Shown: positions 1 to 12,308 of the stretch, in pieces | How positions within the stretch are numbered: position 1 is the stretch's first letter | Layout of the letters: every line of letters starts with the position of its first letter | Assembly: GCA_012513515.1 (NCBI GenBank) | Contig: JAAZCA010000038.1 | Location: 1-12,308 of the forward strand | Length of the DNA: 12,308 bases | Source of the DNA: Myxococcales bacterium | Lineage (GTDB): Bacteria > UBA10199 > 2-02-FULL-44-16 > JAAZCA01 | Reading direction: 5' to 3' | Translations under genes and position numbers: made by a program | The notes under the pieces: model-generated | What the model was told of the DNA's origin: nothing | Database searches by the model: none | Seen by the model: only the letters and a program-made list of their open reading frames with translations

Positions 1-33
1 CAAAAGCGCTAAAAGAAAGATCCTGAATCTCAT
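1..33 (-). CDS. Start of an outward-facing exported protein gene (partial, 11 codons)
   Basis: On the minus strand an ATG at 31-33 is preceded, after five bases, by a strong GGAGG (complement of 39-43). It opens a frame reading MRFRIFLLALL before the window ends. A basic start followed by a run of leucines, isoleucine and phenylalanine is typical of the n- and h-regions of a Sec signal peptide, so the product is probably exported. The same 11 codons occur at the right end, reading outward on the other strand. The function cannot be told from 11 residues. The strong ribosome binding site and candidate promoter support a real gene rather than chance. Confidence 0.6.
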   Translation of the reverse strand, partial: MRFRIFLLALL

Positions 34-77
34 TAAAACCTCCAAAAAACAGGCCACAAAAGCGCAGGACGGGTAAT

Positions 78-106
78 TTTCTACGCCATAAGCAACCGGA
101 ATTCAA
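78..106 (-). promoter_or_regulatory. Candidate sigma70-type promoter of the left terminal gene
   Basis: On the minus strand, TTGAAT (complement of 101-106) is separated by 17 bases from TAGAAA (complement of 78-83). Each hexamer matches four of six consensus bases and the spacing is ideal. It lies about 45 bases upstream of the start codon. The identical arrangement is present in the right repeat copy. Prediction only. Confidence 0.4.
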
Positions 107-112
107 GCCATT

Positions 113-154
113 AGTTGCGTAATGGTTCTCGCCTAAAATACGAAAAAGTTGCGT
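113..154 (-). repeat. Pair of ACGCAACT direct repeats upstream of the left terminal gene
   Basis: The octamer ACGCAACT occurs twice on the minus strand (complement of 113-120 and of 147-154), 34 bases apart. Both copies lie upstream of the candidate -35 element at 101-106. Paired sites upstream of a promoter could bind an activator or repressor. No regulator is identified. Confidence 0.35.
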
Positions 155-211
155 GATTTTCCCTTTTCCCCGTCAGAGGGAGCAACAGCATCCAGACCCC
201 AAAAAGTTTTC

Positions 212-330
212 ATTCGAAAACATCCTTATTAAGATTAAGATCAAGACCAGGATCAGGATGAAGATGAAGATGACCTTTCTCGTCACTCGGGGATGACAGC
301 CGTTCACCAGTCACGAGTCACGGCAGTTGC
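212..330. repeat. Imperfect direct repeat, unit A
   Basis: Unit A starts with ATTCGAAAA, continues with a TTATT-plus-hexamer array and ends with CGTTCACCAG followed by an ACGAGTC-containing stretch. Unit B (397-538) has the same blocks in the same order: ATTCGAAAA, TTATT, a hexamer array, CGGGGATGACA and CGTTCACCAG with ACGAGTC. B is longer because a palindromic segment of about 40 bp is present between the last two blocks. The two copies look like an old tandem duplication with later indels. Confidence 0.7.
231..272. repeat. Degenerate hexamer tandem array, seven units (consensus AAGATG/T)
   Basis: Seven consecutive hexamers follow the pattern A-A/G-G-A-T/C-N: AAGATT, AAGATC, AAGACC, AGGATC, AGGATG, AAGATG, AAGATG. 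The related array at 416-445 has five units. Both arrays are preceded by TTATT. The unit number may vary between strains. Confidence 0.75.
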
Positions 331-347
331 GGGAGGGGGTCGAATCC

Positions 348-375
348 TGATCGCTGATCACTGATCTTTGATCCG
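348..375. repeat. Heptamer tandem array TGATCNN x4
   Basis: TGATC recurs at 348, 355, 362 and 369 with an exact period of seven, giving four units of TGATC plus two variable bases. It lies between repeat units A and B. No function is evident. Confidence 0.75.
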
Positions 376-396
376 CCTTTTGTAAGATTAGCTTAT

Positions 397-538
397 ATTC
401 GAAAATATCGTTATTAGGGTTAAGATTAGGATTAAGATGAAGATTCGGGGATGACAACATGAATGTCATTCCCGCGCTTTTAGGCCGCCGCTACCGCGGG
501 GTTCCAACCGTTCACCAGTTACGAGTCGCGGTTGTTGC
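397..538. repeat. Imperfect direct repeat, unit B
   Basis: This is the second copy of the unit at 212-330, sharing the ATTCGAAAA, TTATT, hexamer, CGGGGATGACA, CGTTCACCAG and ACGAGTC blocks in order. It contains a five-unit hexamer array at 416-445 and an additional palindromic segment at about 457-507 that unit A lacks. Confidence 0.7.
448..500. repeat. REP-like overlapping palindromes
   Basis: ATGACA (451-456) pairs with TGTCAT (464-469), extended by GGG/CCC with a one-base bulge. CCCGCG (471-476) also pairs with CGCGGG (495-500), so two hairpins compete for 471-473. The TGTCATTCCCGCG core resembles short palindromic intergenic repeats common in many proteobacterial genomes. There is no T-run on either side, so it is not a convincing intrinsic terminator for comM. 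Confidence 0.5.
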
Positions 539-561
539 TGATTTTTCGGAGGTAACTTGAT

Positions 562-2088
562 TTAGGCAATTTCCTCCGTGCTTGGCCTGAACTGAAGGGC
601 TTCGGCGATGTGCTCCTCCAGCACGTCGGCGCTTTCCGCGAGATCGGCTATGGTGCGAGCGATCTTGAGGGTTCTATGAGTGGCCCTCGCGGATAGATTA
701 TGACGGGCGGCTGCGGAGGCTAGCAATTTTTTGGCTCCGCTTCCCGGATTGACGTGGGTTTTTAATTCGCGTCCTGTGAGATGCGAATTGTATTTTTCCG
801 ATCTACCATATCTTTCAGACTGTATCTTCCGCGCCCTCATGATTCGTTCGAGCACTTCGCAGGAGTGCTCTTCCTGAACGTGCTCCATGAGCGCTTCGTG
901 AGGAGGAGGGCCTACTTCGATGTGCAGATCGATCCGGTCGAGCAGCGGACCGGAAAGCTTGGCGCGATATCTGCGGATGTCGCCTATCGAACAGGTGCAT
1001 GGGCGCGAAGGGTGTGTGAAAAATCCGCATTTGCAGGGGTTGTAAGCGCATACCATCATGAACTTCGCAGGATAGACGATCATCGTCTGCGATCTGGTGA
1101 TTCGCACTATGCCGGATTCCATCGGCTGTCTCAAAACCTCCAGAACGTCGCGCCTGAACTCCGCCATCTCGTCTAAAAAGAGAACTCCGCGGTGAGCGAG
1201 GGATATCTCCCCCAGCCTTGCAGTTCCTCCCGACCCTCCCCCTATCAGACCTGCGTATGAGGCCGAGTGATGAGGCGCTCGGAACGGACGCTTTGTCGGG
1301 AGCTTCTGCCCCGGGGCGATCAGCCCGTGACAGCTTCGAATTTTCATCACCTCGAGCGCCTCGAACTCGGTGAGGGGAGGGAGGATCGAAGGTAGCCTTT
1401 CGGCGAGCATGGTTTTGCCGGTTCCCGGAGGTCCTTTCATCGCGATATTGTGTCCTCCCGCTGCGGCGATCTCGAGGCCCCGTTTGGCAAATGGTTGCCC
1501 TTTCACATCGGAGATGTCGAGAGTTTCGGCTTCCGGATGTGCCTCTCTTCTGTGTTCTGGAAACTGAGGACTTAGCTCGCCGTTCAGAAATGAGATTACA
1601 TCCGAAAGTTTTTCGACGGGGATAACTTCCCCCGGCATCGCGAGCTTTGCCTCCCAGGCATTTTCGCGAGGAACTATGACTCCTTTCAGCCCGAGCCTTC
1701 TCGCTTCAAGTGCCATCATGAAAATCCCTGCGACAGGCATGATGCGCCCATAGAGAGATAGCTCTCCGGCCATGATGAATTTAGAGGCCATCGCGGCGCT
1801 GGCGTTTTCCGTGGCGCAAAGCAGTGCCACCGCTATCGGAAGGTCGTAATGCGTGCCAGCCTTTTTGATGTTGCCGGGGGATAGATTCACGAGCGTTTTT
1901 CTGTTGGGAGTCATGAACCCCGAATTTCTGATTGCGCTCGATACGCGGTCGCGCGCCTCCTTTACTGCCGTCTCCGGCAGGCCGACCATGTTCCAGCCCG
2001 GAAGACCTCTCATGAGTATCTCTACCTCGATCTTGATCGCTACCGCCTCTATTCCGTCAAGCGCCGCTGAGAATGTGTGTGCTAGCAT
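562..2088 (-). CDS. comM: ComM/YifB-family Mg-chelatase-like AAA+ ATPase
   Basis: This 508 aa protein is full length for the YifB/ComM family (about 500 aa). In naturally transformable bacteria ComM is a hexameric helicase that promotes branch migration of incoming DNA during recombination; it also occurs in species not known to be competent. Residues 1-170 form the typical N-terminal ChlI-like domain, including GLPGWNMVGLPETAVKE at 28-44. The AAA+ core has Walker A GPPGTGKT (219-226), Walker B VLFLDE (302-307), the cysteine-rich NPCKCGF stretch near 350-367 and LLDRIDL (382-388). The C-terminal Mg-chelatase-type region follows. The start gives the canonical MLAHTFSAAL opening; only a weak purine-rich GAAGAAG precedes it. 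It is transcribed alone, divergent from the TrpF-like gene. The family call is secure; a role in transformation here is not shown. Confidence 0.96.
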   Translation of the reverse strand: MLAHTFSAALDGIEAVAIKIEVEILMRGLPGWNMVGLPETAVKEARDRVSSAIRNSGFMTPNRKTLVNLSPGNIKKAGTHYDLPIAVALLCATENASAAMASKFIMAGELSLYGRIMPVAGIFMMALEARRLGLKGVIVPRENAWEAKLAMPGEVIPVEKLSDVISFLNGELSPQFPEHRREAHPEAETLDISDVKGQPFAKRGLEIAAAGGHNIAMKGPPGTGKTMLAERLPSILPPLTEFEALEVMKIRSCHGLIAPGQKLPTKRPFRAPHHSASYAGLIGGGSGGTARLGEISLAHRGVLFLDEMAEFRRDVLEVLRQPMESGIVRITRSQTMIVYPAKFMMVCAYNPCKCGFFTHPSRPCTCSIGDIRRYRAKLSGPLLDRIDLHIEVGPPPHEALMEHVQEEHSCEVLERIMRARKIQSERYGRSEKYNSHLTGRELKTHVNPGSGAKKLLASAAARHNLSARATHRTLKIARTIADLAESADVLEEHIAEALQFRPSTEEIA

Positions 2089-2127
2089 GTTTCTTCTTCA
2101 ATGCAATTGCCATGCCCGGGTAAAACG

Positions 2128-2156
2128 CATATATATCAAGGCTGGGTATTTGCTAA
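2128..2156 (-). promoter_or_regulatory. Weak candidate promoter of comM
   Basis: On the minus strand, TTAGCA (complement of 2151-2156), a 17-base spacer and TATATG (complement of 2128-2133) lie about 40 bases before the comM start. Each hexamer has four of six consensus matches. Prediction only. Confidence 0.25.
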
Positions 2157-2158
2157 AC

Positions 2159-2194
2159 TGTATGAAAACGATGCTTGTGGATAATTTTCATACA
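2159..2194. promoter_or_regulatory. Perfect 10-bp inverted repeat between comM and the TrpF-like gene (possible operator or 5' UTR hairpin)
   Basis: TGTATGAAAA (2159-2168) and TTTTCATACA (2185-2194) are perfect reverse complements separated by 16 bases. The right arm abuts a -10-like GATAAT (2180-2185) and lies 5 bases before the ribosome binding site of the TrpF-like gene. It could be an operator for a dimeric repressor or a hairpin in the leader RNA. The symmetry is visible; the function is inferred. Confidence 0.45.
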
Positions 2195-2212
2195 CTTCCG
2201 GAGAGGGCGGAT

Positions 2213-2956
2213 ATGATAATTCAGATATATGAGGTGAATTCTGAGGCAGAGGCGAAGCAGTTGGCCGAACTCGGCGTCGATCACATAGGGAGCGTAATAA
2301 CTCCCGAGATGCGCTGGGACGACCCGGGTGTGAGAGGGGCCGTAGCGGCTGCGAAGGCATTCGGAAGGAAAAGTTCGTTGATTCAGTTTTCCGACGATTT
2401 TGAAACTGTTTCAAGGATAATTGATTATCATCGGCCCGACATTCTCCATTTCTGCGAGGCGCTTCATGGCTTTGCGGAAGATAGGCTTGCGGAGCTTTTG
2501 CTTTTGCAGCTAAAGATAAGGGAGAGATATCCATTTTTGTCCATCATGCGCTCCATTCCAGTTGCGCAAAGCGGTAGGGGGGAGCGTGTCGATACGCTGC
2601 ACTATGCAGAAATATTTGCGCCCGGCAGCGACTACTTTCTGACAGACACTCTGCTCATAGCGGATTTCGACGGAACGGAAGAAGAACAGCCGGTCCCCGG
2701 CTTTGTGGGAATCACTGGAAAACTCTGCGATCTCGATGTTGCAGCGAGGCTCGTTAGCTCATTCAAAGTCCCGGTCATACTTGCCGGCGGGCTCTCTCCT
2801 CTTAACGTGGCGGAGGCTATAGAAAAGGTAAAGCCATGTGGAGTGGACAGCTGCACCCTCACCAATGCGATTGGGCAGGGCGGCAGGCCGGTGCGTTTCA
2901 AAAAGGATATGAAGTTGGTGGAGCAGTTCGTGACGAACGCGAAAAAGTTATTTTAG
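2213..2956 (+). CDS. Phosphoribosylanthranilate isomerase (TrpF)-like TIM-barrel protein, catalytic cysteine motif absent
   Basis: This 247 aa protein resembles TrpF, the (beta-alpha)8 isomerase of tryptophan synthesis (usually 200-220 aa). GFVGITGK (163-170), VPVILAGGLSPLNVAEAI (186-203) and GVD (210-212) match the phosphate-binding end of the barrel, and D145 in FLTDT sits where the catalytic aspartate is expected. However, the N-terminal K-I-C-G motif that supplies the general-base cysteine is replaced by QIYEVN (4-9). The usual C-terminal serine/glycine/glutamate segment after GVD reads SCTLTN. No other trp gene is near. It may therefore act on another substrate. The ATG at 2213 was chosen because GGAGAGG (2200-2206) precedes it and it aligns with the family start; in-frame ATGs at 2162 and 2171 lie in the inverted-repeat region. 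Its last 9 bases overlap the end of the opposing dehydrogenase gene. Confidence 0.75.
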   Translation: MIIQIYEVNSEAEAKQLAELGVDHIGSVITPEMRWDDPGVRGAVAAAKAFGRKSSLIQFSDDFETVSRIIDYHRPDILHFCEALHGFAEDRLAELLLLQLKIRERYPFLSIMRSIPVAQSGRGERVDTLHYAEIFAPGSDYFLTDTLLIADFDGTEEEQPVPGFVGITGKLCDLDVAARLVSSFKVPVILAGGLSPLNVAEAIEKVKPCGVDSCTLTNAIGQGGRPVRFKKDMKLVEQFVTNAKKLF

Positions 2957-4102
2957 AGCTTCCTGAGATTTGAATTTGCGAAACGGGGAGAGGTCGGTGA
3001 TAACTTCGATGTCATCGGCGGTTTCATTTCTCATGATCATGCGCGTGAGCATCTCGCCGAGGCCGAGCCCCAACATAAATCCCTGACCGCACATCCCGGC
3101 TGCTATCAGATATCCATCCAGAGAATTATGCCATCCTACAAGCGGCGATCCATCCGGCGTCGAAGGATAAAGCCCGCACCATGTTCTGCGAACCCTTATT
3201 CCGGCGAGTCTCGGCATCAGCCACACCATCCGCTTGGCTGCCATAGGAAGAAAGAGCGACGATTCTCCCCTCTCGTATCCTGAAATTTCAGGTTCAGGGC
3301 TTATGCAGAAAATGATCTGTCCGGAGCGCAGTTGGTAGAAATAACAGTTGCTGGACCCGGGCGCAGGTTTGATATCGACGATCATCGGTCCGAGAAACTG
3401 CGCTACGGGTTCCGTGATTCCGGCTTCGTGCGAGTCGGGGAGGACGGGGAGGTTGAGGCCGACTAATTTACCGACCTCTGTCGCATATGCCCCGGCAGCA
3501 TTTACTACGCAGGCTGTTTTGTAAGTCCTTTTGTCGGTTCGCACGCCGGTGACGCGCCCTGCGTTCGTATCTATTCCAATCACCTTTTCGTTGAAACGAA
3601 ATTCAGCCCCATAGGTCTTGGCCTGATCGTAGAAGGCATGGTTCGCCAAAAGTGTGGAGCAGTGACCGTCATTCGGCGAGAATGTTGCTCCCCTGAGATT
3701 TGCAGGATTGAGATCGGGGGCTATGCTCAGTACAGCCTCCTTGTCGTGCCAGTCTATTTTTAGCCCGTGTGCGTGTTGTTCCTTGAGCAAATTTTTGAGG
3801 ATGAGCTCCTCTTCCTCCCTGTAGGCGACGAAGCAGTATCCTCCCGAATGCCATTCGATGTCGTGGCCGAAGGTTTCCTTCCAGCTCGATATTATTTCCA
3901 AACTTCTCTTGCATATGATCAGCTTGGAGGGATCCGAGTGCGTTGCGCGCATGCCGCCTATGGCCGCCTTGTTCGAGCCCTGCCCTTGGCTCGGGAGGGC
4001 ATCGATCACGAGCACGCGCATCTTTTCCCGCGCCATCGCCAAAGCTGCGGGGACTCCTATGCTTCCGGCGCCGATGATGATGACGTCGTAGCTTTGAATC
4101 AT
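2948..4102 (-). CDS. FAD-dependent amino/imino acid dehydrogenase, DAO family (beta subunit)
   Basis: This 384 aa protein belongs to the D-amino-acid-oxidase (DAO) fold family. It resembles the catalytic subunits of heterotetrameric sarcosine oxidase (SoxB), proline/hydroxyproline dehydrogenases and opine oxidases. The N-terminal dinucleotide-binding motif is GAGSIG (11-16), with an acidic residue ending the second strand (VIDA, 32-35). GSNKAAIGGMRATHSD (42-57) corresponds to the flavin-contacting loop. The C-terminal AAGMCGQGFMLGLGLGEM (334-351) matches the family's second FAD segment. No signal peptide is present, so it is probably cytoplasmic. Its ATG overlaps the stop of the upstream alpha-subunit gene by ATGA, which implies coupled translation and a complex. 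Substrate class is inferred: a secondary amine, imino acid or D-amino acid. The exact substrate cannot be read from sequence. Confidence 0.88.
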   Translation of the reverse strand: MIQSYDVIIIGAGSIGVPAALAMAREKMRVLVIDALPSQGQGSNKAAIGGMRATHSDPSKLIICKRSLEIISSWKETFGHDIEWHSGGYCFVAYREEEELILKNLLKEQHAHGLKIDWHDKEAVLSIAPDLNPANLRGATFSPNDGHCSTLLANHAFYDQAKTYGAEFRFNEKVIGIDTNAGRVTGVRTDKRTYKTACVVNAAGAYATEVGKLVGLNLPVLPDSHEAGITEPVAQFLGPMIVDIKPAPGSSNCYFYQLRSGQIIFCISPEPEISGYERGESSLFLPMAAKRMVWLMPRLAGIRVRRTWCGLYPSTPDGSPLVGWHNSLDGYLIAAGMCGQGFMLGLGLGEMLTRMIMRNETADDIEVITDLSPFRKFKSQEALK

Positions 4103-6189
4103 TTTTCCTCCGAAACGCCGGCGAAAATGCCGATCGGCACTTCGATGAAAAGAGGGCGCCTGGTATTTTCTGTAACATCAGTAAAAGGAACTCCTTCTTC
4201 GCTGAAAAGCCTCTTGATGAGGGGCTGGCATGTTTTCCCCTGGCATGCTCCCATGCCTGCGCGTGTGACCGCCTTGACCTCGTTGACGTCGCGATACCCC
4301 TTGCGAATCAGTTCGCGAATGGTGCCGGCCGTTATTCGCTCGCATCTACAGACTATGGTATCATCTGTGATGCGCGTGATTTTTTCCTCCATTGCCTCGC
4401 TTACCCACAGCTCCTGCACGCGTATTCCGGCGATGCGGGCTGCTATGTTTTTCGGTGCCTGCAACTTGAGAAGAATGGTGTGATCGTTCTTTTCAATGGT
4501 GCGAACGTTGGTTACCGTCACATCTCCCAGCGGTTCTCCCTCGGAACTTATCGCGGTAACCGAATCTCCCTCACGCGTGGCTCTGTTTGAAAACTCGTGT
4601 GCTATCGTCACCGTGGGATTCTGCGGATCGTTGCGGTAATCGACCAGCGTCACTGCGAGCCCGGGGCAGATGGTTACACATTTTTCGCAGCCGACGCATT
4701 TTTTGCCCGACTTTCCGCCGAGGAAGACGGGGAGATGCCTTATGTCCGCCTCTTCGATCTTTATGAGATGTTGAGGGCAGACGGAGCTACAGGGATTGCA
4801 CGGGATTTCCTGATAACAGTGGAATACCGGAACTATTCCATCCTCGCAATTTTGGTTTTTCTTATTCTCAGTTCTGCCGGGGCGGGACTTTAGTATCTCG
4901 GCGGTTTTCACCCAGTTTTCGGGAACATCCGGCGCATCTGCCCCTAGCATCTTGGCCATCTCTACGCCGCGAATTTTGCCGGCGAACATCGCCGCCGATG
5001 CTTCAGCTATCTCCTCGGCATCGCCTGCCGACAGCACGTGCATCCCGAATTTTTTTGCTTTGATTGCGAATTCGTTCACGGGGTCGAGGCCGACCGCCAC
5101 GAGTATGGTGTCGCATTTGAACGAGCGTTCGCTTCCTTCGACGGGGCGAAAGAGCTCGTTCACTTCGCTGATCGTCACCGATTCCACCTCGGTTCTCCCG
5201 TTAGCGGAGATTATCGTGTGGTTCGTGTATATCGGGACTCCGGCGCGGATTAGCTTGTCCTTGTGCACCTTGTATCCACCGCATTCGGGCATCGCCTCGG
5301 CCAGCCCCACCACTTCGATCCCGGCTTGAAGCGCGTGGTATCCTGCGATGAGCCCCACGTTGCCTCCGCCTATTATGAAAAGCCTGTCTGAAATCTTTAC
5401 CAGATCTCGGTTGACCAGGGTTTGAAAAGCCCCTGCTCCGATTACTCCGGGAAGGGTGTTGCCGCGAAACACTATAGATCTCTCTCTGGCGCCGGTCGCC
5501 ACCAGCGTTACCTGTGGCTTCAGAATTACATACTCCTTCCCTTCTTTGAGGATGCCGACCACCCGGTCTCGGAAGATGCCGAGCGCGGTGCTGTTCGTCC
5601 ATATTTCTATCGAGGGATGTTTCTTGATCTCTGATTCCAGCTTTTTGGCGATTTCTATGCCGCGCGTTCCAGCGTGTACGGCCGATATGGAGCCGAAAAA
5701 ACGATGGGTCTGAAGCAGGAGCTTTCCGCCAAGGGATGGTTTGTCGTCGATGAGTAAGCTCTTTATGCCCATCTTGCCCAGTTCGATCCCGGCAGAGAGC
5801 CCGGCGGGTCCCCCTCCCAGTATGAGGGCAGGGAGCTCTATTCTTTTTATCTCCTTGCTATACGGAGCATTTGATTTTTTCGGGAAGATCGGATCACCTC
5901 TTAGCTCGGCCACCTCATCTCCGGCGGAAATCTTGGTCATGCACGCCTTCACCGGGAAGTCGTTTAAAAGCACCATGCACTGCGAACATTGCCCGTTGGC
6001 ACAAAATATCCCCTGCGGGGATCCGTCCTTTTTGTGTTTTCCGAAGATTTTGACTCCGTTGGCAAGCAGGGCCGAGCTTATCATCTCGTCAGGCAGAGCC
6101 CACATCGTAGAGCCGTTCCATGTGAATGATATTTTTTGCAGTGAGGGGATCGGCAGAATAGGGTGCTCTTTCAGCCTTTTGTCCGTCAT
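4099..6189 (-). CDS. Fused [2Fe-2S]/FAD-NAD/2x[4Fe-4S]/BFD oxidoreductase (alpha subunit of amino/imino acid dehydrogenase)
   Basis: This 696 aa electron-transfer subunit joins parts that are often separate proteins. Residues 15-100 are a SoxA/HcnA-like [2Fe-2S] domain with C63, C68, C71 and C83. Residues 119-415 are a two-dinucleotide-domain flavoprotein with GGGPAG (125-130), ATGARER (231-237) and GGGNVG (274-279). Residues 455-512 carry eight cysteines for two [4Fe-4S] clusters: 458, 464, 467 and 471, then 498, 501, 504 and 508. Residues 540-600 are probably beta-rich. The C-terminal BFD-like [2Fe-2S] domain has C614, C616, C649 and C654. The gene starts the operon, with AAAGGGGG before the ATG, and overlaps the beta-subunit gene by four bases. 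Electrons probably pass from the beta-subunit FAD through this chain to NAD, ferredoxin or a quinone pathway. Relatives serve hydroxyproline, proline, sarcosine and opine oxidation; the acceptor here is unknown. Confidence 0.9.
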   Translation of the reverse strand: MTDKRLKEHPILPIPSLQKISFTWNGSTMWALPDEMISSALLANGVKIFGKHKKDGSPQGIFCANGQCSQCMVLLNDFPVKACMTKISAGDEVAELRGDPIFPKKSNAPYSKEIKRIELPALILGGGPAGLSAGIELGKMGIKSLLIDDKPSLGGKLLLQTHRFFGSISAVHAGTRGIEIAKKLESEIKKHPSIEIWTNSTALGIFRDRVVGILKEGKEYVILKPQVTLVATGARERSIVFRGNTLPGVIGAGAFQTLVNRDLVKISDRLFIIGGGNVGLIAGYHALQAGIEVVGLAEAMPECGGYKVHKDKLIRAGVPIYTNHTIISANGRTEVESVTISEVNELFRPVEGSERSFKCDTILVAVGLDPVNEFAIKAKKFGMHVLSAGDAEEIAEASAAMFAGKIRGVEMAKMLGADAPDVPENWVKTAEILKSRPGRTENKKNQNCEDGIVPVFHCYQEIPCNPCSSVCPQHLIKIEEADIRHLPVFLGGKSGKKCVGCEKCVTICPGLAVTLVDYRNDPQNPTVTIAHEFSNRATREGDSVTAISSEGEPLGDVTVTNVRTIEKNDHTILLKLQAPKNIAARIAGIRVQELWVSEAMEEKITRITDDTIVCRCERITAGTIRELIRKGYRDVNEVKAVTRAGMGACQGKTCQPLIKRLFSEEGVPFTDVTENTRRPLFIEVPIGIFAGVSEEK

Positions 6190-6244
6190 CTAAGCCCCCT
6201 TTGCAGACGATTCGTCGCAGAGGAGAGAGTAGCTATAAGAGAAG

Positions 6245-6274
6245 ATAAAAAGAATCAAGCGGCAGATTTGACAA
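6245..6274 (-). promoter_or_regulatory. Candidate promoter of the alpha/beta dehydrogenase operon
   Basis: On the minus strand, TTGTCA (complement of 6269-6274) is followed after 18 bases by TTTTAT (complement of 6245-6250), about 55 bases before the alpha-subunit start. The -35 hexamer overlaps the candidate -35 of trxB on the other strand. Prediction only. Confidence 0.3.
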
Positions 6275-6318
6275 TTTTCCCGGATCGTCTTGACTATTGC
6301 GCCGTTTTTTTTCACATT
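6268..6318 (+). promoter_or_regulatory. Candidate promoter region of trxB
   Basis: A perfect -35 hexamer, TTGACA (6268-6273), lacks a good -10 at 17 bases. A second, TTGACT (6290-6295), has CACATT (6313-6318) after 17 bases. Both lie in the 189-bp gap between the divergent dehydrogenase and trxB operons. Which one is used cannot be decided from sequence. Confidence 0.35.
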
Positions 6319-6378
6319 GCGTGATCATTTCAGATGGGCGTTTAGCTTTGTTGTTATCGCGAGAAAGGGGTAACTAAG

Positions 6379-7302
6379 ATGAACGATGTCATAATACTTG
6401 GCTCCGGACCGGCTGCTTTGACCGCTGCGATCTACGTTTCGAGATCGAGCTTTTCACCGCTTGTAGTCGAGGGGCTCCAGCCGGGCGGTCAGCTCACAAT
6501 CACTACGGATGTGGAAAATTTCCCCGGCTTCGCCAAACCGGTCGAGGGGCCGGCTCTTATGGCTGATATGAGGGCGCAGGCCGAGCGCCTCGGCGCGACC
6601 TTTATCTCCGGCGTCGCAGAAAAGGTGGATCTTTCAAGGCGTCCCTTTTCCATAATCGTCGGCGGGAAGGAGCTGCAGAGCAAAACCCTGATCATAGCCA
6701 CCGGCGCCTCTGCGAGGTGGCTTAATATCGAATCCGAAAAGAAACTTCATGGCAGGGGGGTCTCTGCATGCGCCACCTGCGATGGTTTCTTCTTCAGGGG
6801 CAAGGCGGTTTGCGTAATAGGTGGAGGCGATACGGCCCTCGAGGAGGCGATGTATCTGGCAAATCTTGCATCCAAGGTGACGCTCATCCACAGGCGCGAT
6901 GAGCTTCGAGCTTCCAAGTCGATGCAGGAGAGGGCTCTAAAAAATTCGAAGATAGAATTCGCATGGAACTCTGTTGTCGATGAGATCCTCGATGTGGCCA
7001 AAGGTGAGGTCACCGGCGTTAGGGTCAAGGATGTGAAGAGCGGAGAGCTGCGCGACATACCCTGCGATGGAGTCTTCGTGGCGATAGGTCACACGCCTAA
7101 CACATCTATTTTCAGGGGGCAGCTTGAGCTGGACGAGAACGGATATATCGTTACCGAAAAATCCAGCATGAAGACATCCGTGGATGGAGTGTTCGCATGC
7201 GGCGATTGTCAGGACAGCAGATACAGACAGGCTGTTACCGCAGCTGGAACCGGGTGTATGGCAGCTATCGATGCCGAGAGATTTTTGCAGGAGAACTCGT
7301 GA
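6379..7302 (+). CDS. trxB: Thioredoxin-disulfide reductase (NADPH)
   Basis: This 307 aa protein is full length for low-molecular-weight bacterial thioredoxin reductase, a cytoplasmic flavoenzyme that uses NADPH to reduce thioredoxin. The FAD motif GSGPAALTAA is at 8-17. The redox-active CATC is at 131-134, in the typical CATCDGFFFRGK setting. The NADPH domain has GGGDTALEEA (148-157) and HRRDELRAS (171-179), whose arginines normally bind the 2'-phosphate of NADPH. The C-terminal FAD segment VFACGDCQD...RQAVTAAGTGC (271-293) is intact. GAAAGGGG precedes the ATG. It is the first gene of a pair: its TGA overlaps the GTG of the following outer-membrane protein gene. Nothing points to loss of function. 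Confidence 0.97.
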   Translation: MNDVIILGSGPAALTAAIYVSRSSFSPLVVEGLQPGGQLTITTDVENFPGFAKPVEGPALMADMRAQAERLGATFISGVAEKVDLSRRPFSIIVGGKELQSKTLIIATGASARWLNIESEKKLHGRGVSACATCDGFFFRGKAVCVIGGGDTALEEAMYLANLASKVTLIHRRDELRASKSMQERALKNSKIEFAWNSVVDEILDVAKGEVTGVRVKDVKSGELRDIPCDGVFVAIGHTPNTSIFRGQLELDENGYIVTEKSSMKTSVDGVFACGDCQDSRYRQAVTAAGTGCMAAIDAERFLQENS

Positions 7303-8375
7303 AATCTGTTCCATCAACAGCGCTCGTTATAGCGGCTGTCATCCTGATTTTCCCCGTGCAACTGCACGCGAGGAACTATAACAGCTTTGGTCCGATATCC
7401 GTCAGAAATCAAAATCCGGTTTATTTACAGAATCTCGGACTTACTCCAAGGCGTGCGGAGCCGCTAGCCAGCGGGACTCTTGAGACGAGAATAGACTCGG
7501 CCTACTCGAGCATGTATGAGGCGCAGATTGGTAATAACTCCAGCATGGATTTCGATATGGAGCTCTGGCGGCTCGCGCTTCACATGGATTACGGCGTTAG
7601 AAATGACATGGAGGTTGGAATCGAAATTCCGATGCTGCATTTCAACGGCGGTTTTCTCGACAGGTTCATACAGGAGTTTCACAACTTCTTTCATCTGCCC
7701 AATGGCGGGCGCGAGAATGTGCCGAATGGAAGATTCTCTTACAGGTTTTCATCCGGAGGGAGGGACCTGCTGGATTATCCGGAGATGGGGCTTGGTCTCG
7801 GCGATATCTCATTTCACGTAAAAAATCAGCTTCTTGGCGAGGATGACGATTGGCCTGATCTCTCCTGGTTCGCGGAGATCAAGCTCCCGACGGGCAAGAA
7901 GAGCAGGGGGCTCGGCAGCGGTGCGATGGATTTCGGGGTGGGATCGATATTGGGGGTTTCCCACAAACGCGTACATGGTCACGTGAACGTCGGGCTTTAC
8001 GTGCTGGGGGGGAATCAGTCGATCAGCAATTTCATGTACAACAACATGTTGGCATTTTCCCTGGCAGGGGAGCTTACGCTCCTTCCTACCTGGTCGATGA
8101 TCGTTCAGCTGGACGGTTCCACTCCGCTTTTTAATAGCACTTCCATGGATAACTGGGATGGCGTTCCGATGAATCTCATCGTAGGGTTCAGAGGGGAGGA
8201 GCGCAGCATAATACGCAACAGCGATCTCATCTGGCAATTCGGATTTGTGGAGGATATCACCTCAAGGGGGCCGGCGGTTGACTTCACCGTCTTTTTCTCT
8301 CTCGGGATGCGCTTTGACACCCTCGGACGGCACCGTCCTGCGGGGGACTGGCTCGCCAGAAAAGTCCTGAAATAA
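7299..8375 (+). CDS. DUF3187-like outer-membrane beta-barrel protein
   Basis: This 358 aa protein has a signal peptide (a hydrophobic stretch from about 8 to 22, probable cleavage after LHA at 22-24). A body follows with alternating polar and aromatic or hydrophobic residues and many glycines, typical of an outer-membrane beta-barrel. The early GPISVRNQNPVYLQNLGLTP segment and the later EIKLPTGKKSRGLGSGAMDFGVG segment resemble DUF3187 proteins, whose function is unknown. Lysine-proline-threonine-glycine followed by a G-rich strand is common to many barrel families. The GTG start at 7299 was chosen over in-frame codons upstream inside trxB because AGGAGA precedes it and a signal peptide begins there. 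It overlaps the trxB stop by GTGA, so translation is probably coupled. A two-way terminator lies just downstream. The DUF3187 name is from memory of the family and should be searched. Confidence 0.78.
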   Translation: MKSVPSTALVIAAVILIFPVQLHARNYNSFGPISVRNQNPVYLQNLGLTPRRAEPLASGTLETRIDSAYSSMYEAQIGNNSSMDFDMELWRLALHMDYGVRNDMEVGIEIPMLHFNGGFLDRFIQEFHNFFHLPNGGRENVPNGRFSYRFSSGGRDLLDYPEMGLGLGDISFHVKNQLLGEDDDWPDLSWFAEIKLPTGKKSRGLGSGAMDFGVGSILGVSHKRVHGHVNVGLYVLGGNQSISNFMYNNMLAFSLAGELTLLPTWSMIVQLDGSTPLFNSTSMDNWDGVPMNLIVGFRGEERSIIRNSDLIWQFGFVEDITSRGPAVDFTVFFSLGMRFDTLGRHRPAGDWLARKVLK

Positions 8376-8387
8376 AATATCCTGAGA

Positions 8388-8424
8388 TAAAAAAAGGCAT
8401 GTGGAAAGCGCATGCCCTTTTTCT
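8388..8424. terminator. Two-way intrinsic terminator between the DUF3187-like gene and ssb
   Basis: GGCATG (8396-8401) pairs with CATGCC (8411-8416). The stem is flanked by an A-run on the left and CTTTTTCT on the right, so it yields a T-rich tail on both strands. It sits between two converging genes (ends at 8375 and 8445) and probably terminates both. Confidence 0.75.
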
Positions 8425-8444
8425 ATTCGCGTGTCGATCGTCCG

Positions 8445-8876
8445 TCAAAATGGTATGTCGTCGGGCCCCGCATCTATGTCGAACGCAGGGGCTTCGTCGG
8501 AGTTGGCAGGTGGCGATGTGAACTCGACGGAACGCCCGGAGGAATCCCCCTTGGAACCGAGAAACTGAACGCTCTGTGCGACGACTTCGGTCGTGTAGCG
8601 TTTCTTCCCTTCCTTGTCGTCCCACTGGCGGGTCTGCAGCTTTCCTTCGATATAGACCTGGCGGCCCTTCGAGAGGTATTGCGCGCAGTTTTCAGCCTGT
8701 GCACCCCAGACCACTATGCGATGCCATTCGGTTTTTTCCTGTTTCTGGCCGCTTTTGTCCTTCCAGGTCTCCGATGTAGCGAGGTTGAATTTCGCGACGC
8801 TTCTCCCGCTTCCCGTTACCAGTTTTTCTGGATCGGTTCCAAGCCTGCCGACCAATATCACCTTATTTACACTCAT
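8445..8876 (-). CDS. ssb: Single-stranded DNA-binding protein
   Basis: This 143 aa protein binds single-stranded DNA as a tetramer and recruits replication and repair proteins through its C-terminal tail. The OB-fold spans about residues 1-107, starting [17 protein letters not shown], with the conserved HRIVVWG (52-58), EGKLQTRQW (77-85) and tryptophans at 38, 51, 57 and 85. A short linker leads to the acidic tip DDIPF, the normal partner-binding tail. The ATG follows AAGGAAGGA, which lies inside the end of the upstream TPR-lipoprotein gene. The gap between the two genes is only 2 bases, so they are probably co-transcribed. The length is shorter than E. coli SSB because the linker is short. 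Confidence 0.97.
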
Positions 8877-8878
8877 AT

Positions 8879-9589
8879 CTAGTCCTTCCTTTTGTCTATT
8901 TGTTTCTCCAAACCCCTGAAGGAGATCTTCCAGTCTTCATATGAGGCGTCATGCTTCCATTGTTGGACCAGCGATTTTGCATCCGCCAGGGCCTCGATCG
9001 CGTCGCCGAATTTCTCCTGTGAGAGGTAGTTTTCGGCAAGCGAGAGATAGTTTTCCGGATAATCCGGGGCGAGTTCGACCGCTTTTTTAAGACAGCTTTC
9101 CGCGAAGGGGAGGTTGCGCGTAACGCTTTCAACGTTGCCGCCGGTCTGCGGGAGCTGCGTGTAGATCTGTCCGAGCATCCGATATGCCCCTGCGTGCTCG
9201 TATTTCGGATCGAGAGAGATGACGGCGTTGCAGTCATCTATCATTCTCTTGATGCCGTTTTGATAGCCCAGCACGCGGACCTTGTAATATAGGCCGGTGT
9301 TGACGGCCCTCCAGTATCGGCAGCCCGCATTTTCCGGGGCGTGCATGAGGCAGCGCTCCGCGATCTCCATCCCTTTTTCGGCGTAATCCTTAGATTTGCC
9401 GCGATCCTTCTCTTCCATCGCTTTGAGTGCCAACTCTCGCGATTCGCCCTGCATCGCGTACTGATTGGCTTTTCCGTTCATCGTCGATGGATTTACAGCT
9501 GAAGCGCTGCTGGAGCAGGAAGCAAAGTGCACGCAGGCCGCAACTGCGGTCAGTATGAGGGCTGGACTTATTCTAATCATGGCTCGCAT
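8879..9589 (-). CDS. TPR-containing lipoprotein (possibly TatT-like)
   Basis: This 236 aa protein begins with a lipoprotein signal peptide: a basic n-region, the hydrophobic stretch ALILTAVAA and a lipobox cysteine at 19 (VAAC), or alternatively 25 (FASC). The mature part is alpha-helical with tetratricopeptide-type repeats. The clearest is at about 165-205 ([20 protein letters not shown], then another helix pair with [12 protein letters not shown]). The pattern of an alanine-rich N-terminus, a YWRAV motif and late TPRs recalls the TatT family of TRAP-transporter-associated lipoproteins, but no TRAP transporter genes are here, so that match is tentative. The first ATG has AGGG only one base upstream; the in-frame ATG at 9580 (fourth codon) is an equally likely start and keeps the signal peptide. 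It precedes ssb by 2 bases. Confidence 0.8.
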
Positions 9590-9688
9590 GCCCTAGCAGG
9601 TTTTGTTGTCACCTTCAAGGGATTAAATATGGGAAATGCGCGGGCCTTTGCATAAGGGGAGTCAGGGCAGACGCCGCATATCAACAGC

Positions 9689-9717
9689 TTGACTTAACGG
9701 GGGTTTTTCTGTTAGCC
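9689..9717 (+). promoter_or_regulatory. Candidate promoter of tRNA-Cys
   Basis: TTGACT (9689-9694), close to the -35 consensus, is followed after 17 bases by a poor -10 (TTAGCC, 9712-9717), which would start transcription a few bases before the tRNA. The -10 is weak. The call rests mainly on the -35 and the position. Confidence 0.3.
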
Positions 9718-9732
9718 AGCGTATTCGTTTTT

Positions 9733-9805
9733 GGCGGCGTACCCAAATGGCTAAGGGGACGGTCTGCAAAACCGTTATCTACCGGTTCAATTCCGGTCGC
9801 CGCCT
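9733..9805 (+). tRNA. tRNA-Cys (anticodon GCA)
   Basis: A complete cloverleaf can be folded. The acceptor stem is GGCGGCG (9733-9739) with CGCCGCC (9798-9804). The D arm has CCC/GGG with a GG-containing loop. The anticodon stem is ACGGT/ACCGT around the loop CTGCAAA, with GCA at 9766-9768. The variable loop is five bases, and the T arm is ACCGG/CCGGT around TTCAATT. The discriminator base is T (9805), the expected identity base for cysteine. The CCA end is not encoded and must be added enzymatically. There are no integrase or duplicated tRNA ends to suggest use as an attachment site. Confidence 0.96.
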
Positions 9806-9819
9806 CAGATGGAATTTAT

Positions 9820-9851
9820 GGGCATGCGCATGGCGCGTGCCCGTTTTTTTT
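9820..9851 (+). terminator. Intrinsic terminator downstream of tRNA-Cys
   Basis: GGGCATGCGC (9820-9829) pairs with GCGCGTGCCC (9833-9842), a ten-pair stem with one G-T wobble and a three-base loop, followed by G and eight T (9844-9851). It begins 14 bases after the tRNA. The T-run overlaps the stop codon (9850-9852) of the opposing TSP3-protein gene. On the minus strand no T-run follows the hairpin. Confidence 0.9.
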
Positions 9852-11949
9852 ACATCCTGTTTTGGAATTTCAATTGGCAGCTTCCGAAGAGATCTGGATC
9901 CGAGAGGTCGAGCTTCAGCACCCTGCCATCCGTCGTTCCAACGAAGAGCCACGATGCGCTTGCCACGATATTCGCAGCGCCGTAGGAGACTTTTACGCAC
10001 TCCATCCCCTGGGATGTGAATGTGTTTTTATCCACGTTTACACGCACTATCCTCTCTCCCGCTGCGAGATATATATGGAGGGACTGCTGCGTCGTGTCTT
10101 CTGCCGCAGCTTGATCGAAGGAGATATCCGTTATCTTGGCCTCTGCAGGTATGGCGTCTTCAAGAGAGATGTCGTGCTGATCGGCAGAAACCGAGGTAAC
10201 ATCCACAAATTTTAGCGAGTGATGGGGTTTTGCCATCGGTACCACCGCAATCGTTCCTGAGTTCATCAGGTTGAGTTCCGGGATGTGGTGAGCCTCGACA
10301 TCTCCTACCGGACCGCTGAATCCTATCCATGCGCTCATCATCATACTTGACTCATTTCCGGGATGGAGACCGATTCCAGCCATGTGTCCTTGGTCGCCGG
10401 CGCTCATGACAAGCAGCAGGTTGCACGGGCTGTACCTCTTGCAGCCATCGCTGTCGATGTTGGTACGGGCCATCGCTACTGACCTTCTGGTGACATTCAT
10501 CAGGTCAACGTCCGGAATTCTGTCGAATGTTTCGGGGATCAGGTGCGTCATTTTGAACTGCTTTTGCGACCAGTCTGGATGATCGCGGTACCCGACCAAA
10601 AGCGAGGGCGAGCTACAGAGATCCTCAGGATCCGGCGGACAATAGAAATGGCTTATGAATATAGTGCTCTCAGATAAGGTCGGAGAGTCGATAAAGCCTA
10701 TCGGATATGTGGGGTAGAAGAAACTGTCCTCTACTATATGTGCCGATGAGAATTGATAGCTCTGAACGGGGGGATTTTGGACCCTGTCAAATCTTCCCAT
10801 TACCGTAGGAGTCTCCCCAACCCCCATTGCAAGAGCTAGCCCTCCGTGATCTCTGGGCACGTAGCTCTGTGCTACCACGGGAATTTGTGCGACAGGGATC
10901 TCGATTCCGGCGGAACATGTCAGAGCGCTGGAGGTCGCTTGGCATTCGACCAAAGAGGGCTTGCCGACCGGAGTCATGCCGTACAATATGAGTTCGCCAT
11001 TATAGAGGTCCATATCGGCGGTGAAAATTCCGGAGAAGACCTCCTTCATAGAAGGATCGCAGAGATCGCCGATTCCGTCCTCATTGGAATCTTTCTGTGC
11101 CGGGTTCGCCATATCAGGACAGTTGTCCAGGCAATCTTCTATCCCATCTTCGTCCGCATCCTTATCCGGGACTCCGCAGCCGCATACGCCGGGGTGGATC
11201 TTGTCGGGATCGGTTGGGCAATCATCGCATGCGTCGCCGACGCCGTCATTGTCGCTGTCGATTTGATCAGGGTTATAGTCCTCCGGGCAGTTGTCCTCTT
11301 CATCTATTACGCCATCTCCATCCATATCCGGTCGTCCAACCTCTGCTTCCGCTTCCACTTCTGAAGGATTTTCAATGTCGCAATTGTCGGGCGGGATATT
11401 CATATCCAGTTCAGATATGTCGCCCATATCATCCACGTCCTCTATATCACCCACATCCCCTACGTCATCTGCGTCGTCGGGTGGAATATCCGTACGGGGG
11501 GTGTCCGGTTCTGTGTCAGGCCTGCGTGGAAGTTCCTGTGCATCATAGGTGTCGGGAGGGGTTATCTGATCAGTGGGGGTGTCCATTTCCACATAGCCAT
11601 CGTAGGCGTCGAATGAGATATCATTTCCGCTCGGTGGGAGGCCAGTACACCCGAACATAAACCCACCGCTTCCGAGGAGAAATTTGTATAAATTGCTTCC
11701 GAAGGAAGGCTTGTGTACGACGCGCATATCGCATGCGTACTTCCCCTCGAATTCCTTGCAGTCGAGGAAGAATTGGCGGTCGTCGCGATTCTTGAAAGCT
11801 ATTGTTACGGTATCCTCAGGGGATTCGAAAGAGGGCCACGAACTGACGTCGGTGACCCAACGGCAGTCCTCTCTGGAATCCTTGCCGTGGCAGAACTTCT
11901 CCATGGCAAGCCCTATCGCAAGATGTAATCTTTTGTTCTCAATTCCCAT
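9850..11949 (-). CDS. Large secreted or surface protein with thrombospondin type 3 repeats and a C-terminal beta-propeller-like region
   Basis: This 699 aa protein has distinct parts. Residues 1-85 form an unrecognised cysteine-containing segment (C20, C29, C64, C73). FLLGSGGFMFGC (90-101) resembles a lipoprotein h-region and lipobox. Residues 104-207 are a very acidic, proline-rich linker with repeated D-D/V-G-D units. Residues 208-298 hold calcium-binding TSP3 repeats (DMDGDGVIDEEDNCP, DSDNDGVGDACDDCP, DADEDGIEDCLDNCP, DSNEDGIGDLCD). Residues 302-699 are beta-rich, ending in a propeller-blade-like WLFVGTTDGRVLKLDL (667-682). TSP3 repeats are typical of extracellular proteins in Myxococcota-like bacteria. 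The ATG at 11949 has GGAGAGG in front of it. An in-frame ATG at 11727 (M75) would start a protein with a lipoprotein signal peptide, MRVVHKPSFGSNLYK then FLLGSGGFMFGC, but has a poorly spaced ribosome binding site. The function is unknown. Confidence 0.8.
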   Translation of the reverse strand: MGIENKRLHLAIGLAMEKFCHGKDSREDCRWVTDVSSWPSFESPEDTVTIAFKNRDDRQFFLDCKEFEGKYACDMRVVHKPSFGSNLYKFLLGSGGFMFGCTGLPPSGNDISFDAYDGYVEMDTPTDQITPPDTYDAQELPRRPDTEPDTPRTDIPPDDADDVGDVGDIEDVDDMGDISELDMNIPPDNCDIENPSEVEAEAEVGRPDMDGDGVIDEEDNCPEDYNPDQIDSDNDGVGDACDDCPTDPDKIHPGVCGCGVPDKDADEDGIEDCLDNCPDMANPAQKDSNEDGIGDLCDPSMKEVFSGIFTADMDLYNGELILYGMTPVGKPSLVECQATSSALTCSAGIEIPVAQIPVVAQSYVPRDHGGLALAMGVGETPTVMGRFDRVQNPPVQSYQFSSAHIVEDSFFYPTYPIGFIDSPTLSESTIFISHFYCPPDPEDLCSSPSLLVGYRDHPDWSQKQFKMTHLIPETFDRIPDVDLMNVTRRSVAMARTNIDSDGCKRYSPCNLLLVMSAGDQGHMAGIGLHPGNESSMMMSAWIGFSGPVGDVEAHHIPELNLMNSGTIAVVPMAKPHHSLKFVDVTSVSADQHDISLEDAIPAEAKITDISFDQAAAEDTTQQSLHIYLAAGERIVRVNVDKNTFTSQGMECVKVSYGAANIVASASWLFVGTTDGRVLKLDLSDPDLFGSCQLKFQNRM

Positions 11950-12143
11950 TGTTCCTCTCCACTAGCAAATTTTTTCCTCTTACCTTCATTTTCGTAAAAA
12001 GCGGTATTATGTTGTGTGATTTTTTCGTGATTTCGTGTTTTGGATGATCTTGCGAACCAGTCTATGCTTTTGGCATAATCAGCCTTTCAAATCAAAGCTT
12101 TTTTGGGATCCGGGGATGCGGGTAATCCTGCTTTCCGAGAGGG
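11950..12143. other. Non-coding region between the TSP3-protein gene and the right inverted repeat
   Basis: No credible coding region was seen. On the minus strand a CATAAT (complement of 12006-12011) could be a -10 for the TSP3-protein gene, without a good -35. Short repeats of TCGTGATTT type occur at about 12015-12040, and TTGTGTGAT at 12012-12020 is one base off a motif found in the inverted repeats. TATGC/GCATA forms a small hairpin near 12063-12077. Confidence 0.5.
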
Positions 12144-12154
12144 AAGGGAAAATC

Positions 12155-12196
12155 ACGCAACTTTTTCGTATTTTAGGCGAAAACCATTACGCAACT
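12155..12196 (+). repeat. Pair of ACGCAACT direct repeats upstream of the right terminal gene
   Basis: ACGCAACT occurs at 12155-12162 and 12189-12196, 34 bases apart. Both lie upstream of the candidate -35 at 12203. They mirror the pair in the left repeat copy. Confidence 0.35.
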
Positions 12197-12202
12197 AATG
12201 GC

Positions 12203-12231
12203 TTGAATTCCGGTTGCTTATGGCGTAGAAA
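12203..12231 (+). promoter_or_regulatory. Candidate sigma70-type promoter of the right terminal gene
   Basis: TTGAAT (12203-12208), a 17-base spacer and TAGAAA (12226-12231) lie about 45 bases before the ATG at 12276. It is identical to the left copy. Prediction only. Confidence 0.4.
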
Positions 12232-12275
12232 ATTACCCGTCCTGCGCTTTTGTGGCCTGTTTTTTGGAGGTTTTA

Positions 12276-12308
12276 ATGAGATTCAGGATCTTTCTTTTAG
12301 CGCTTTTG
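12276..12308 (+). CDS. Start of an outward-facing exported protein gene (partial, 11 codons)
   Basis: An ATG at 12276 follows GGAGG (12266-12270) with a five-base gap and opens MRFRIFLLALL, a signal-peptide-like start cut by the window edge. The nucleotide sequence is identical to the left-end gene start, so the two are recent paralogues or at least share a recently homogenised 5' region. The product is unknown. Confidence 0.6.
   Translation, partial: MRFRIFLLALL

Follow-up and report, generated by a model that had tools for sequence, protein, structure and literature searches.

A contig ending in inverted repeats of exactly k bases probably lies between two inverted copies of an S8 protease gene

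Background

The closest biological counterpart of the locus described here is the tufA and tufB pair of enterobacteria, two near-identical genes that are inverted on one chromosome and which are expected to be homogenised through gene conversion, with the interval inverting from time to time (PMC8262849). With inverted gene copies in Salmonella, inversions made up 8% of the selected recombinants, and earlier studies of tuf had given as much as a quarter (PMC8262849). The other counterpart is technical. Collapsed repeats such as rRNA operons and IS copies are found at the ends of contigs in short-read metagenome-assembled genomes, where the contig ends overlap by exactly k at the repeat borders. 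In the set of k values commonly used with SPAdes the largest is 127, which is also a common final k in SPAdes metagenome runs (PMC8172020).

The stretch of DNA analysed here (12,308 bp, "the window") makes up the whole of contig C38 in a draft genome, G000, of 1.79 Mb in 42 contigs that is 99.3% complete. With a probability of about 0.9, we consider it to be an unbranched path of a k=127 assembly graph located between two near-identical inverted S8 protease genes that were collapsed into another contig, C41. Like the collapsed rRNA operons and IS copies, its ends overlap others by exactly k at the repeat borders, but here what occurs in two inverted copies is a gene coding for a protein. In comparison with tufA and tufB, with which it shares the inverted arrangement of near-identical genes, the product is a predicted secreted protease instead of EF-Tu, the interval is 12 kb, and conversion and inversion are processes that we infer.

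Contig ends and assembly graph

Direct comparison of the window ends showed that positions 1-127 are the reverse complement of 12182-12308 with no mismatches. The first mismatch opposes 128 to 12181, identity resumes along 129-165 (37 nt) and ungapped identity is lost from 166, so that the terminal inverted repeats described in an earlier note on this sequence (127 identical bases, a mismatch and 37 more identical bases) are correct to the base. A repeat search reported the same pair (1-165 / 12144-12308, inverted, 99%), and an inverted match of 165 nt cannot be attributed to chance. Both arms contain the beginning of the same gene, which starts 33 nt inside each window end and points outward:

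1-165, minus strand: left arm of the inverted repeat, holding subtilase copy 1 from its upstream region to codon 11, running outward to the left; 1-127 is the reverse complement of C41:1-127
12144-12308, plus strand: right arm of the inverted repeat, holding subtilase copy 2 from its upstream region to codon 11, running outward to the right; 12182-12308 equals C41:1-127
1-33, minus strand: start of subtilase copy 1, with its ATG at 33-31 (C41:95), continuing in C41
12276-12308, plus strand: start of subtilase copy 2, with its ATG at 12276 (C41:95), continuing in C41

The terminal 127-mer of the window was found at one further site of the genome, the first 127 bases of C41 (3,104 bp), and therefore the repeat reaches past the window. 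Since both ends of the window equal this same sequence, both run into the same end of C41, that is, the start and the end of C38, read outward, both join the C41 start. The far end of C41 in turn overlaps the end of contig C27 by 127 nt. Actually, this figure was general in the assembly. When the termini of 39 of the 42 contigs were compared (C34, C35 and C42, made only of N, were left out), 15 pairs shared exactly 127 nt and none shared more, 11 of the 15 being unrelated to the protease locus. The contig-end overlaps are thus exactly 127 and never more, which identifies a de Bruijn assembly with k=127. The apparent sequence sharing among C34, C35 and C42 was discarded as an artefact of their being all N. 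The earlier note had proposed an assembly-graph break with k=127 and inverted copies of a longer repeat; the 15 terminus pairs bear out the first proposal, and the second is upheld by the entry of both window ends into C41, which itself ends at another 127-nt junction. In another contig, C28 of G000 (7,410 bp), a 97-nt direct repeat is common to the two ends, which also overlap C22 and C26 by 127 nt.

Beyond the mismatch no base tells the copies apart until a long identical stretch is over, and for this reason the window ends exactly 127 nt further out. The figure reflects the k-mer length, measured from the mismatch towards the outside, and has no biological meaning of its own. As the repeat is a gene in two inverted copies, both ends of C38 share one k-mer. 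When the inverted ends of a contig are identical for exactly k bases, they should be read with caution as an assembly signature, and tracing the shared k-mer through other contigs reveals the underlying repeat. Its nature, a duplicated gene, is not visible from the window alone.

C41 is entered by two paths and was left unmerged with its only visible successor, and it is most simply explained as a collapsed two-copy repeat. From the graph, the inverted repeat has at least 3,142 bp (C41 plus 38 further inner bases of the arms) with one mismatch, an identity of 99.97%. A second exit from the far end of C41 (flank X) was searched for, and only C27 was found in the bin, with no other among the contigs searched. 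Flank X may be unbinned or belong to the contigs made only of N, and therefore the 3' end of the second protease copy is unseen, the principal gap in the two-copy argument. That a single sequence leaves C41 within the bin would also fit a short repeat of only ~165 nt, with one window end continuing into C41 and the other into an unbinned contig. We consider this highly unlikely, as it would take a coincidence for the second copy to part from the first just one k-mer length (127 nt) beyond the mismatch. Furthermore, a short repeat does not account for C41 being unmerged with C27, which implies a branch as the two-copy collapse predicts.

The protease gene in the repeat

The open reading frame that begins at the ATG at base 95 of C41 codes for 1,019 amino acids and ends 50 nt past C41, inside C27. 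According to the assembly graph, the two gene copies cease to be identical ~50 nt before the stop codon. In a profile search the protein showed a lipoprotein-like signal, a Peptidase_S8 domain (PF00082, E 2.5e-12, 47.2 bits versus a cutoff of 21.8) and FG-GAP repeats, whose match was also above the gathering score. The residues of the subtilase triad (D203, H244 and S461) and the oxyanion N345 align across nine sequences. The protein shares with the Peptidase S8 family (PF00082) both the profile match above the gathering score and the catalytic triad, and is set apart from it by the C-terminal FG-GAP-type repeats and the lipoprotein-like signal. Its sequence thus predicts a secreted S8 protease (subtilase plus FG-GAP). 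A search by sequence among solved structures gave no match for it. When 84,980 species genomes were scanned for the protease, only four loci were retrieved, at 36-39% identity, none of them close enough to show the locus with one or two copies.

A conserved element of 25 nt, AACYTTTNNNNATTNTNGRCGAAAA, begins 117 nt upstream of the subtilase ATG in both arms:

126-150, minus strand: left copy of the conserved 25-nt element, in which the single arm mismatch (128) lies
12159-12183, plus strand: right copy of the conserved 25-nt element, same pattern as the left copy

The sole mismatch between the arms falls inside this element. Allowing 0-1 mismatch, the pattern was found in the source genome at the two window ends only, and in the relative G001 at exactly its three subtilase copies (L119-L121). 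It precedes subtilase copies in two genera and is nearly absent elsewhere in those genomes, and is probably a site for a dedicated regulator.

The segment between the copies

Between the identical arms lies:

166-12143, no strand: single-copy spacer of 11,978 nt, the would-be inverting segment

Its genes are yifB, a trpF-like gene, an FAD oxidoreductase, a sarcosine-oxidase-alpha-like gene, trxB, a DUF3187 gene, ssb, a TPR protein, tRNA-Cys and a thrombospondin-type-3 protein, that is, ordinary chromosomal genes. An Rfam search of the window and the small contigs gave tRNA only. The scanned proteins of C38 and C41 included no recognisable recombinase, transposase or replication-end protein, and none was apparent among the open reading frames of C27. 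At 2948-6189 the FAD-dependent oxidoreductase adjoins a protein joining 2Fe-2S, pyridine-nucleotide oxidoreductase, BFD-like and ferredoxin domains. This pair resembles a two-subunit enzyme of the sarcosine/amine-oxidase type, with scores well below the named-family cutoffs. Next to the left arm, in the intergenic stretch at 300-445, there is a member of an interspersed repeat family of ~140 nt, 80-91% identical, with ~20 copies. A different, intergenic repeat (~180-220 nt, 78-97% identical) was found in C27 (L030) at 8400-8660 and at 40 or more other sites of the genome, in full or partial matches. It is present at many contig ends of this 1.8-Mb genome and is probably a main cause of its assembly breaks.

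The coincidence of inverted repeats with both ends of the sequence could suggest the terminal inverted repeats of a linear plasmid, a linear phage or a transposon. However, the sequence runs on past these ends into C41 and then C27, which refutes such ends, and the window carries chromosomal housekeeping genes and a tRNA, without transposase, terminal protein or replication-initiation gene. We give this explanation almost no credence. The earlier note had likewise argued against a transposon or linear plasmid, and rightly, as the body of the repeat is a chromosomal protease gene that extends into yet another contig, and no mobile functions are encoded.

With the window as a path between two collapsed protease genes, the genome would read, from one side to the other, flank X, a leftward copy 1, the window itself (12 kb), a rightward copy 2 and C27, or the same with the outer flanks exchanged. 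If the arms recombined by RecA-type crossing-over, the 12 kb segment would be inverted. Such an inversion would swap the upstream contexts and the last codons between the copies, no gene being destroyed, and would probably be close to neutral. By analogy with the inverted gene copies of Salmonella, the segment may flip occasionally. A different kind of flipping would be phase variation, in which a site-specific recombinase inverts the 12 kb between short terminal repeats and switches the promoter of the protease. The inverted repeats at both ends do contain a promoter-proximal element. Still, no recombinase or invertase appeared in the contigs scanned, the repeat is a whole gene of ~3.1 kb rather than a short site, and the promoter and gene start are the same in both arms, so flipping would not turn expression on or off. 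A phase-variable segment is largely refuted by this anatomy and seems exceedingly unlikely.

Gene conversion and related copies

The locus is an ordinary gene duplication, and what has to be weighed is the origin of the near-perfect identity of its copies. As in the inverted tuf genes, it would most likely be kept by gene conversion between older paralogs, which we favour with some reserve. A recent duplication without conversion, as a variant of the same two-copy explanation, is a less probable but serious alternative, since 99.97% identity along at least 3,142 bp equally suits a young duplication. The sequence just inside the arms speaks against it:

166-225, no strand: inner flank on the left side, which in a local alignment resembles the right inner flank (12084-12143) weakly but in register

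This similarity extends ~60 nt beyond the identical arms. The local alignment scored 18.5, against 17.5 or less in 2,366 background windows, and the score was reached by 1 of 500 shuffles at 60 nt and by 0 of 500 at 100 nt. Judged from the alignment, it is possibly a remnant of older homology past the identical stretch, a hint that the pair is old and became homogenised only recently, instead of having arisen by fresh copying. An origin of the similarity from interspersed repeats was rejected, because the right flank matches nothing else in the genome and the repeat families on the left begin further in.

The relatives also argue against a simple recent duplication, as they hold multiple diverged copies with the marks of conversion. 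The protease family was found in 17 of the 60 genomes searched, including the source genome itself. Three clustered copies each, within ~25-33 kb and in mixed orientation, are present in G001 (+,+,-; L119-L121, G001:C9:66000-120000) and G017 (+,-,-; L122-L123, G017:C11:145000-183000). The copies in these relatives have ~75-82% DNA identity overall with near-identical patches, among them, in G001, an identical run of 253 nt amid stretches of ~70%, and such patchy identity between paralogs, observed in the relatives only, suggests gene conversion. When the neighbourhood of the gene was compared with those in G001, G003, G004 and G017, only the protease was in common and no other neighbour. The protease genes described here are thus a further case of a near-identical pair in inverted orientation, and the relatives of this lineage have clustered and apparently conversion-patched copies of the same protease family. 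It could be imagined that in this uncultured lineage the family, with a conserved upstream element of its own, is repeatedly kept as nearby inverted copies in order that conversion and flipping of the intervening chromosome diversify a surface protease, and we regard this as very unlikely. In G001 and G017 the protease copies sit in inverted, nested duplicated segments, those of G001 with apparent kinase- and phosphatase-like neighbours.
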